From the NCBI GenBank assembly GCA_030682375.1, contig JAUXOL010000015.1, positions 62,001 to 126,000 of the forward strand: a stretch of 64,000 bases of DNA. The letters are read 5' to 3'. The position numbers were made by a program, and so were the translations under genes. Under the pieces are notes generated by a model. It saw nothing but the letters and a program-made list of their open reading frames with translations, did no database searches and was not told the origin of the DNA. Below, in pieces: positions 19,264-39,163 of the stretch. Position 1 is the first letter of the stretch. Each line of letters opens with the position of its first letter. Source of the DNA: Gallionella sp. GTDB taxonomy: Bacteria > Pseudomonadota > Gammaproteobacteria > Burkholderiales > Gallionellaceae.

Positions 19264-19692
19264 ATGGATGATTCTATTTGGGTCGCGCTTATCGCTGCGT
19301 GTGCCAGCATACTTGTGGCAGCATCTACTTTTTATTTTACTAAGATGCATGAACGAGAAGCCAATTTGCGAAACGAGAAACTGAATCATTACAAAGTGCT
19401 TTTCTCTTCGCTGTCTGATCTTGCAGTTGATGGAACTGACAAGAGCGATGCGGGGAAGCGTTTTTCATTAGCGGTCAATACTATTGCATTGGCTGCTCCA
19501 CAAAACGTAATAAATGCTCTCATGTCGTTTCACAACGAGGTGAGTTCTCCAAACAGAAATATTGAGCGACACAATGAGCTTCTTAAAGAATTACTTCTCG
19601 CCGTTCGAAAAGATATTGGATTAGCAAAAGGTGATGATAAAAATACCTTCAATTTCCATTTGATTGGGGCTACCAAGGTCCGAGTGCCGTAG
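19264..19692 (+). CDS. Orphan membrane-anchored protein with atypical base composition
   Basis: 142 aa. Residues 5-23 (IWVALIAACASILVAASTF) form a signal-anchor helix, and the rest is a soluble, mostly helical region (HEREANLRNEKLNHYKVLF...). Codon use is clearly more A/T-rich than in all neighbours, suggesting horizontal origin. The Shine-Dalgarno is weak. The stop codon TAG is supplied by the first bases of a dispersed repeat (GTAGGTCGGG, 19689), so the natural C-terminus may have been lost. No homologous family recognised. Confidence 0.55.
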   Translation: MDDSIWVALIAACASILVAASTFYFTKMHEREANLRNEKLNHYKVLFSSLSDLAVDGTDKSDAGKRFSLAVNTIALAAPQNVINALMSFHNEVSSPNRNIERHNELLKELLLAVRKDIGLAKGDDKNTFNFHLIGATKVRVP

Positions 19693-19825
19693 GTCGGGTT
19701 AGCATCAGCGTAACCCGACATTGATGGGAGTGCGTCAGGGAATTGTCGGGTTACGGTCTGTGGCCTAACCCGACCTACTCGCCGCGTAGCAAGCGTAGGA
19801 TGGGTTGAGCGCAGCGATACCCATC
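19689..19825. repeat. Composite of REP-like inverted repeats
   Basis: 19689-19778 is bounded by GTAGGTCGGGTTAG and its inverse CTAACCCGACCTAC, and contains two internal hairpins built on TCGGGTTA/TAACCCGA. It is followed at 19788-19825 by a second type, with GATGGGT (19799-19805) pairing with ACCCATC (19819-19825). Nothing here looks coding. Such elements are widely dispersed between genes in proteobacteria. Confidence 0.75.
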
Positions 19826-19833
19826 AATCAAAG

Positions 19834-20379
19834 TCAAAACCGTCGGGGGTAGCCCGACAGCTAGTTACTTTCTTTTGCTTCGCCAAAAGAAAGTAACCAA
19901 AGAAAAGGCGCCCCCGGTTTGCCGCCGCTACGCGGTTCCCTGCGTTGCTCGAACGGCCGGGCCTCCTCATAAACTCGCACGACCCGCTGCGCGGTCACGT
20001 GCTCAAACATATTCGTCGGACTGCCCCCGTCCGTCCTGCGCTACTCGGCGGCGCACAGGGGAAAGACAAGTAAAGCGGTTTTGTGTGCGCTGCGCGCACG
20101 AATCTTTGGGTGGAGTGCGAGGAGGGCGCGCCCTCCTCGCGGGTTTTGATTTTGACTTTTTGAATTTTCTCCCCTGTGCGCCGCCGAGTAGCGGAGGCTG
20201 GTCAGGGGTAGTCGGCGAGGACTGTCTGAGCGCGAAGCGCGAGTTCCGCAGCCGCCTGACCAGTCGAGCAACGCAGGGAACCGCGCAGCGGCGGCAAGCT
20301 GGGGACGCCTTCTTTTGGTTACTTTTCTTGGCAAGACAAGAAAAGTGACTTGCTGTCGGGCAACCCCCGACGGTTTTGA
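19834..20379. repeat. Nested long inverted-repeat element, non-coding
   Basis: Outer arms of about 115-119 bp: 19834-19952 and 20264-20379 are inverted copies with small mismatches, both containing AACCGTCGGGGG, a run of A/T-rich GTTACTTTC-like sequence and GTTCCCTGCGTTGCTCGA. Inside are perfect 24-bp inverted arms, 20039-20062 and 20170-20193 (CGCTACTCGGCGGCGCACAG...). At the centre lies a perfect 24-bp palindrome, 20117-20140 (GCGAGGAGGGCG and its inverse). No transposase or convincing gene is encoded within. Together with 19689-19825 it explains the 790-bp stretch without a gene between 19692 and 20481. Confidence 0.85.
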
Positions 20380-20480
20380 TTTTGAATTTTCAAACTGGAT
20401 GGTCTAGCTCATCCCTCGATACGGCTACGCCTACTCGGGACGAATGGCCTTATGGTGAATTAACTCTTTGGGACGCAGCC

Positions 20481-38103: not shown

Positions 38104-38287
38104 AATAAAGCCCCCCGCCTGTGCCGTTGACCCAATTATCTTGAACCTGGGTCCAAGAGGGCCGCGCTCCGGTTACATCAGGTACATCCACTAGGGACGC
38201 GCACAACAGTAACGATTTGGATTGCGACCTTACGCTGTGCGTATTGGTTCTAAGAAATTATGAGCCTGACGAGCACCGCAGGGGACA
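38104..38287 (-). ncRNA. ssrS: 6S RNA
   Basis: Between zapA and the EVE gene, in the conserved position. On the minus strand the 5' part reads TTGTCCCCTGCGGTGCTCGT and the 3' part contains CCCAGGTTCAAG and AACGGCACAGGCGGGG, analogous to the 3' segment of Escherichia coli 6S RNA. The ends pair as a closing stem (CCCCTGCGGTGC with GCACAGGCGGGG, imperfect). Length is about 184 nt; ends are estimated. 6S RNA mimics an open promoter and sequesters sigma70-RNA polymerase in stationary phase. Confidence 0.85.
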
Positions 38288-38877: not shown

Positions 38878-38906
38878 TTGTGGAGAGCAGCGCGCTGTGG
38901 TAGAGT
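38878..38906 (+). promoter_or_regulatory. Sigma70-like promoter upstream of the cobalamin riboswitch
   Basis: TTGTGG (38878-38883), 17-bp spacer, TAGAGT (38901-38906). Placed just before the first paired element of the riboswitch. Pattern inference. Confidence 0.5.
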
Positions 38907-38914
38907 TCGCGCCG

Positions 38915-39075
38915 CTTCGAGGTGCTCGTCTGCTGGCGGACGAGTTAAACGGGAAACAGGTGCGATGCCTGTGCTGCCCCCGCAACGGTAAGCGAGTGAG
39001 GATGCGTCAACATGCCACTGTGAGTAATCATGGGAAGGCGACGTATCAAGACTTGCGAGCCCGGATACCGGCCCC
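38915..39075 (+). promoter_or_regulatory. Cobalamin (adenosylcobalamin) riboswitch
   Basis: The conserved blocks occur in order: GAGGTGCTCG; GGGAAACAGGTGCGATGCCTG; GCTGCCCCCGCAACGGTAAG (38974-38993); the B12 box GCCACTG...GGGAAGGC (39013-39039); and the final GCCCGGATACCGGCC. This is the class I cobalamin element. It lies in the btuB leader with a terminator directly after it, so B12 binding should stop transcription of uptake genes. Confidence 0.97.
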
Positions 39076-39085
39076 GGACAAGGTT

Positions 39086-39163
39086 CAGGAAATGCTGCGG
39101 GAGGCGCATGGACGGTATCTGCGCGGCATCGCCGCCGCCTACTCTTCCGCACATTTCCTGTTT
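39086..39163 (+). terminator. Terminator hairpin of the riboswitch expression platform
   Basis: CAGGAAATGCTGCGG (39086-39100) pairs with CCGCACATTTCCTG (39145-39158), one bulged base, with a 44-nt internal region, followed directly by T5 (39159-39163). It lies 11 bp after the aptamer and 48 bp before the btuB ATG, and fits premature termination when cobalamin is bound. Confidence 0.85.

Follow-up and report, generated by a model that had tools for sequence, protein, structure and literature searches.

The nested palindrome at positions 19828-20385 of the window, as we call the whole 64,000-nucleotide stretch of Gallionella sp. DNA analysed here, is in our assessment, at a probability of roughly two in three, a gene-less member of a non-autonomous, mobile family of inverted-repeat gene cassettes of the Gallionellaceae, and the repeat unit of the family, termed here the arm, occurs across much of the order. 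A complete cassette of this kind would consist of an arm, a border hairpin, an optional promoter-like leader with usually one AT-rich gene, a second border hairpin and a second arm. The first-pass annotation, made from the letters alone, had proposed a MITE-like or a structured non-coding element. "MITE-like" is right in spirit, the element being mobile and non-autonomous, yet what it belongs to is a dispersed family of gene cassettes.

The element is a single structure, in which two inverted copies of the arm, 235 nt (left) and 216 nt (right) in length and 76% identical, surround a 107-bp centre. Its features are as follows.

19828..20062, minus strand: left arm, 235 nt, B-type variant, read outward; covariance model R1 E-value 9.4e-59 (arm in the training set)
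19838..19862, minus strand: outer terminator-like hairpin of the left arm, pointing outward and followed by a T-rich tail (terminator scan)
20039..20062, no strand: inner 24 bp of the left arm, a perfect match to the right arm
20063..20169, no strand: centre, 107 bp, gene-less, two hairpins and A/T-rich linkers
20085..20099, no strand: centre hairpin 1, GTGCGC-TGC-GCGCAC, identified by eye
20117..20140, no strand: centre hairpin 2, a perfect 24-bp palindrome with a terminator-like score on the plus strand
20170..20193, no strand: inner 24 bp of the right arm, a perfect match to the inner 24 bp of the left
20170..20385, plus strand: right arm, 216 nt, A-type variant, read outward; R1 E-value 8.3e-68 (arm in the training set)
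20352..20374, plus strand: outer terminator-like hairpin of the right arm, pointing outward and followed by a T-rich tail (terminator scan)

Both window arms were part of the R1 training set, so the E-values of 8e-68 and 9e-59 are not independent. The left arm has the sharp ends common to 76 aligned near-full arms (60 distinct), and the inner 24 bp is conserved among them. On re-check the perfect 24-bp inner arms and the perfect 24-bp central palindrome reported in the first-pass annotation were exact to the base. Its outer dyad (19834-19952/20264-20379) is real as well, only the arms are longer than the 115-119 bp assigned to them and run on into the inner dyad. The three concentric levels that it described therefore exist as dyads: two of them are different portions of the arm, its outer part and its inner end, and the third is one of the two centre hairpins. 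The dyads are not due to chance because the 558-nt strand folds at -380.3 kcal/mol, compared with -221.1 +/- 7.6 in 100 shuffles (z -21). Four terminator-like sites were scored in the stretch versus 1.2 +/- 1.2 in shuffles, and outward sites of this kind mark both outer ends in the window element and in cassette L032 of the same genome. No promoter-like site was found inside the window element by the promoter scan. A protein-like frame is likewise absent, as had been noted, and the 157-aa and 97-aa ORFs simply run along the palindromic sequence.

The arm itself has the marks of a structured RNA. Folding of both strands, a check suggested earlier, gave -101.5 kcal/mol (z -3.6) on the outward strand of 20170-20390 versus -83.7 kcal/mol (z -1.9) on the opposite strand. 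A consensus structure was derived from 43 arms on their outward strand, of which the genus, with the own genome, supplied 36 and other families the remaining 7. It contains 58 pairs, 29 of them with double compensatory changes. None of 500 shuffles matched the observed covariation on any of five measures, and slid structures scored far below the consensus. These data bear out the earlier suggestion of a structured non-coding element. G-U cells exceed A-C cells on the outward strand (161 versus 18, or 67 versus 18 without three G-U-rich positions), with the qualification that the consensus was derived on that strand and that folded single-stranded DNA could give a like asymmetry. RNA is the likelier reading of the arm on these sequence patterns, though not the sole one. 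From its inner to its outer end, an arm of this genus passes through a closed multibranch domain and a long hairpin to a terminator-like hairpin, after which the sequence turns T-rich; the 7 arms of other families have no such tail. The one long hairpin envisaged in the first-pass annotation is possible on paper, given the z-score of the whole strand, and the covariation and strand asymmetry favour each arm as its own outward-read structure. No Rfam 15 family matched the arms above its gathering score. Elsewhere in the window, the Rfam search placed a cobalamin riboswitch at 38903-39090 (plus strand) and a 6S RNA at 38108-38287 (minus strand).

Pairing of arms was analysed in 245 records, comprising the window and 244 loci fetched for holding arms, with neighbours taken within 3.5 kb. 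Neighbouring arms formed 112 pairs, of which 103 were inward, none outward and 9 in the same direction, and the 9 exceptions to the inward rule count against our main reading. There were no duplicate centres among the pairs; 16 of the 103 inward pairs came from other families. Between the arms of 63 inward pairs lie 624-2172 bp, mostly AT-rich and usually with one gene, and these are the cassettes. The remaining 40 have a gene-less centre of 14-391 bp (107-119 bp in 11 of them), a class that includes decayed or poorly aligned pairs; for 13 of the 40 the record is a short stretch from another family. In several short-centre pairs the centre resembles, by eye, the two-hairpin layout of the window element. 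Some arms are solo. In the 8 testable elements with 107-119-bp centres the partner arms are 74-81% alike, and 6 of the 8 combine unlike arm types, as the window element does with its B-type left and A-type right arm. Partner arms in 23 cassettes are 74-99.5% alike; L031 and L032, both from the own genome, also have arms of unlike type, and near-identical partners occur in L149 (99.5%), L150 (99.1%) and L159 (98.1%). A general homogenisation of partner arms was considered and rejected, partners being above the mean of other arms in only 19 of 31 elements, with a strong effect in a few cassettes. Two collapsed elements, L367 and L368, in which the outer arm parts are joined in the argJ-mutT gap of G020 and G008 (by eye), are likely deletion scars.

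The cassettes are polar. A leader, ATAGNCAAAACAATTCGACTCCGGTACATT (up to 6 mismatches of 29), lies no more than 260 nt from the arm on the 5' side of the gene in about half of them (35/63), as compared with 1/63 at the 3' end and 0/63 for the shuffled control, the consensus having been drawn from the same cassettes as were counted; in 28/63 the leader is below threshold. Its TAGNCA and TACATT elements are spaced 17 nt apart, a spacing by which the leader would resemble a sigma-70 promoter; it was not among the sites called in a generic promoter scan of L032, and this, like the 28 cassettes below threshold, weighs against our main reading. A GGGCAACAAGTTGCCC-type hairpin was found on the 5' side in 26/63 and on the 3' side in 6/63 cassettes, and a GGGCACTTCGTGCCC-type hairpin on the 5' side in 6/63 and on the 3' side in 23/63, contrasts inflated by one extra variant that was permitted on the favoured side of each. 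A motif resembling centre hairpin 1 of the window also stands at one border of some cassettes (L034, L192, L256, L295). Leader-like motifs away from arms were examined as candidate cassette leaders and set aside: many of those inspected read GGTACC or GGTACT, not GGTACA, and several adjoin the 3' ends of genes. They may represent another repeat; a few arm-less motifs do read GGTACATT. A AAAGGTACCGGAGTCGAATTGTTT-type motif (L305, L310, L312, L315-L317) is leader-like in reverse and often lies beside gene 3' ends without arms.

The genes carried in these related iron-oxidising bacteria are diverse and foreign-looking. Cargo has a median GC of 0.45 (63 pairs) versus 0.62 for the window, 19 of 22 listed cargoes contain just one ORF of 70 aa or more, and the main cargo proteins include 4 related pairs among 63 and are otherwise nearly all unrelated; L166, L171 and L181 (other families, GC 0.56-0.60) are doubtful members of the 63. 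The first 20 cargo proteins were searched one by one against Pfam: 10 matched at E 0.01, 8 passed a curated cut-off, and the other 10 gave no match at E 0.01. A larger set contained 58 proteins: two second genes and the 56 main ORFs left of the 63 once four near-duplicates and the three doubtful members had been removed. Of 36 families, the 25 listed include AAA_21/AAA_15, HEPN_RiboL-PSP, RloB, AbiJ_NTD4, Abi_alpha, RES and RelA_SpoT as well as HNH, T5orf172, Mrr_N, DUF4145 and KilA-N, each in one or two proteins, and no transposase family. Recognisable cargo includes GapS1-like, AbiL/RloB, OLD/AriA-like and Abi proteins, HEPN domains and nucleases. PADLOC matches include AbiLi/AbiLii, AriA/OLD-type ATPases, for which the models are broad, and PDC-S14; 4 of 10 cargo proteins scanned singly matched at E 0.01. 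The L031 cargo, with no Pfam match, has 107 relatives besides itself, seven of which are named GapS1 family protein by their source, and GAPS1 is termed a defence system in a passage of PMC12774648 citing Mahata et al. 2024. From these matches, which are raw counts among arm-bearing loci, we infer that the cargo is largely anti-phage. One odd fusion cargo, at 1180-1962 of L126, joins IF-2 N-terminal-like domains to DUF4145.

Self-comparison of the genome, another check proposed at the outset, revealed further copies, so the element is not single-copy. There were 71 matches to the query region, many of which fell on a small REP repeat that is separate from the element. Beside the gene-less window element, the inventory of the own genome comprises four cassettes (L031, L032, L034, L036), two solo arms and fragments. 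The window element was matched in 66 of 101 genomes (own included). In a sample of 200 genomes from the order, the arm model had matches at E 1e-5 in 74, and in 46 of 108 genera. Across the phylum it hit 25 of 299 genomes, 8 in the order, 12 elsewhere in the class and 5 elsewhere in the phylum; the best scores fell in the order, and the 17 matching genomes outside it had mostly weaker ones. The inner-end pattern gave at least 114 matches. Among the 80 named matches listed, most belong to Gallionella, Sideroxydans, Sideroxyarcus, Ferrigenium, Gallionellaceae, Gallionellales or Nitrosomonadales, and some are labelled Gammaproteobacteria or Proteobacteria. Plasmids contained arm sequence as short pieces only (3 records), and no arm match was found in phages.

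The window element lies between aroC with a small ORF and mutT-thiE (these names, as well as argJ, qor and sucB, were assigned by eye and denote what we take the genes to be). In relatives, aroC is often followed by its own small ORF and then by conserved genes, and mutT follows argJ where both are found close together; the arrangements are argJ-mutT and aroC-(c9)-c1 in relatives and argJ-c9-c1 in G000. Because relatives have aroC with the conserved genes, and argJ-mutT, in place of the window order, the window junction looks rearranged in its own lineage at or near the element. Crossing over between two elements, tried as the cause of the aroC/mutT junction, was not confirmed, since no arm is left at the second junction, argJ-c9-c1 of G000; such recombination is a possible cause.

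This locus is central to the alternative that survives best, a possibility that we hold at clearly less than even: that the gene-less aroC pair has been domesticated and retained at its site as a bidirectional terminator or RNA element, the gene cassettes being a separate, derived use of arms. aroC occurs in the fetched stretch of 12 of the 40 short-centre pairs, with 2 more showing only c1 (the gene after the aroC slot in relatives), the compact elements have partner arms unlike each other, outward terminator-like hairpins stand at both ends of the window element, and several short-centre pairs have similar two-hairpin centres. The compact gene-less class may indeed consist of older, domesticated elements and not of cassettes left unfilled. 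Against this, neither aroC nor c1 is in the fetched stretch of 26 of the 40 pairs (13 of the 40 being short stretches), arm sequence is present at only 22 of 49 fetched aroC sites, in some as fragments only, G050 has a gene between arms at the aroC slot, and some cassettes have a border hairpin like that of the gene-less centre.

Mobility, suggested as a possibility in the first-pass annotation along with non-autonomy, is supported by two comparisons of sequences. The elements L151 (G008) and L286 (another Gallionellaceae genome) are 91.6% identical over 1474 bp, from arm to arm, with no flank homology. The full L286 cargo was present in 1 of 76 genomes of the genus, and only its first 70-83 bases were present in 10 others. 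L194/L254 and L156/L219 have only part of their cargo in common, which suggests mosaics, and L152/L160 have the same cargo at the same site. The second comparison concerns the qor-sucB site, where occupancy varies. In G001, G002, G006 and G021, from four species, the site is empty, with flank alignments 14-45 bp apart; different cassettes occupy it in G008 and G020, and G007, G004 and G009 have other inserts containing arm sequence. The site holds a small REP-like repeat in G000 and 2.1 kb without arms in G014, and is incomplete in G010. The own-genome cassettes gave nothing usable as empty-site queries because their two flanks were not neighbours in the relatives listed.

Sharp outer ends, the whole-unit relocation of L151/L286, and genes between inverted repeats with no transposase among the cargo families listed are what one would expect if a conventional DDE transposase, working on the outer ends, moved a MITE or mobile insertion cassette in trans. 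We nevertheless consider this unlikely. Target duplication, sought in the comparison of flanks that had been recommended, was not detected in 48 elements (mean longest shared word 4.67 versus 4.60 +/- 0.14 for re-paired flanks, p 0.34), and no source IS emerged from the comparisons made here. In some elements the inverted symmetry also passes the arm end into further repeats; counted from 16 bp inside the arm end, it covers 76/81 bp in L150 and 66/69 in L149, the two elements whose arms are also the most alike. The MITE assignment in the narrow sense is further disfavoured by terminal repeats that are 216-235-nt structured units and by the 63 inward pairs that hold cargo.

A REP/BIME-type element moved by a RAYT (Y1) transposase is less probable again. 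Hairpins of the arm are strand-specific, REP-like repeats often adjoin arms, and G000 has three Y1 (PF01797) matches. G039, a one-contig genome with arm pairs, has none, so arms can exist without a Y1 transposase, and arms were absent from all 20 fetched Y1 loci. The window contains, at 19689-19778, a separate REP-like repeat of about 90 bp with many matches in the genome, and it is copies of this repeat, not the arm, that flank the Y1 (RAYT-like) gene at G000:C15:48543-48899. Least probable of all are scattered integron-like cassettes moved by IntI, which would fit units of usually one AT-rich gene with unrelated products and the IntI matches above cut-off in 5 of 8 genomes, whereas G000, G020 and G039 have cassettes or arm pairs with IntI below cut-off, so that IntI above the cut-off is not needed for arms, and the genes are flanked by long inverted pairs and have their own leader. 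No moving enzyme was found among these candidates, which, like the lack of target duplication, also weighs against the reading that we prefer.

On the cassette reading that we prefer, the arms likely terminate transcripts leaving the slot in both directions, which would insulate a cargo gene run from its own leader. The family would spread where arms or border hairpins recombine or are copied, and not through a target-duplicating transposase; DNA uptake with arm homology and hairpin-primed template switching are candidate routes. The outward symmetry of L150 and L149 would fit the unproven idea that the arm and its outer neighbour are copied to the other side of a gene when a cassette forms. 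With no gene in its slot, the window element would at present serve only to terminate transcripts in both directions or as an RNA element, and as a site at which cassettes could recombine. A fuller version, which we would back at a little short of even odds, is a so far undescribed, dispersed cassette system of Burkholderiales-type bacteria in which a pair of outward-read, structured RNA units flanks a slot that is polar (hairpin and promoter-like leader on the 5' side, terminator-like hairpin on the 3' side) and carries unrelated, largely anti-phage genes, and which moves without its own transposase or target duplication, possibly by copying the arm and outer repeat across the gene.

Integron gene cassettes are mostly single, diverse, mobile genes. 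The cargo described here is similar in these respects, and differs in being dispersed, in its inverted flanking pair and in its own promoter-like leader. The likeness to MITEs lies in multiple copies and in gene-less, palindromic, non-autonomous elements; the arms, unlike MITEs, show covarying RNA-like folds, and related members carry genes. In behaviour the family is closest to mobile insertion cassettes (MIC/mic, for example MIC231 and mic-qnrD), which, according to passages of PMC3913671, hold genes within inverted repeats without an internal transposase and move in trans. The cargo class shares the passenger gene between inverted repeats without a transposase; the window copy is gene-less. 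The same passages give repeats of 24-26 bp for mic-qnrD, in contrast to the structured arms of 216-235 nt, and call target duplication usual, whereas the present family fails in that test and has no identified source IS. It also differs in having one leader before many unrelated genes and an arm unit spread through an order. REPs flank rayt genes (PMC2817692); arms resemble REP/BIME in being palindromic repeats in inverted pairs, and differ in their length and in showing no RAYT linkage at the loci compared. A description of the arm or cassette family was not found in the open-access PMC literature searched. A Burkholderiales-1 motif is listed in PMC2864571.

If the cassette reading is true, the arm and leader would provide a sequence handle for candidate anti-phage genes that is independent of homology, the arms would make up a large family of structured, RNA-like elements that matches nothing in Rfam 15, and the cassettes would offer a testable case of single defence genes shuffled among sites outside integrons, islands and prophages.

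Beside the element, directly after aroC, the window contains an AT-rich (GC 0.42) 142-aa ORF at 19264-19692. In many relatives another small ORF occupies the position, and for that reason the 3' side of aroC looks like a hotspot for single genes.
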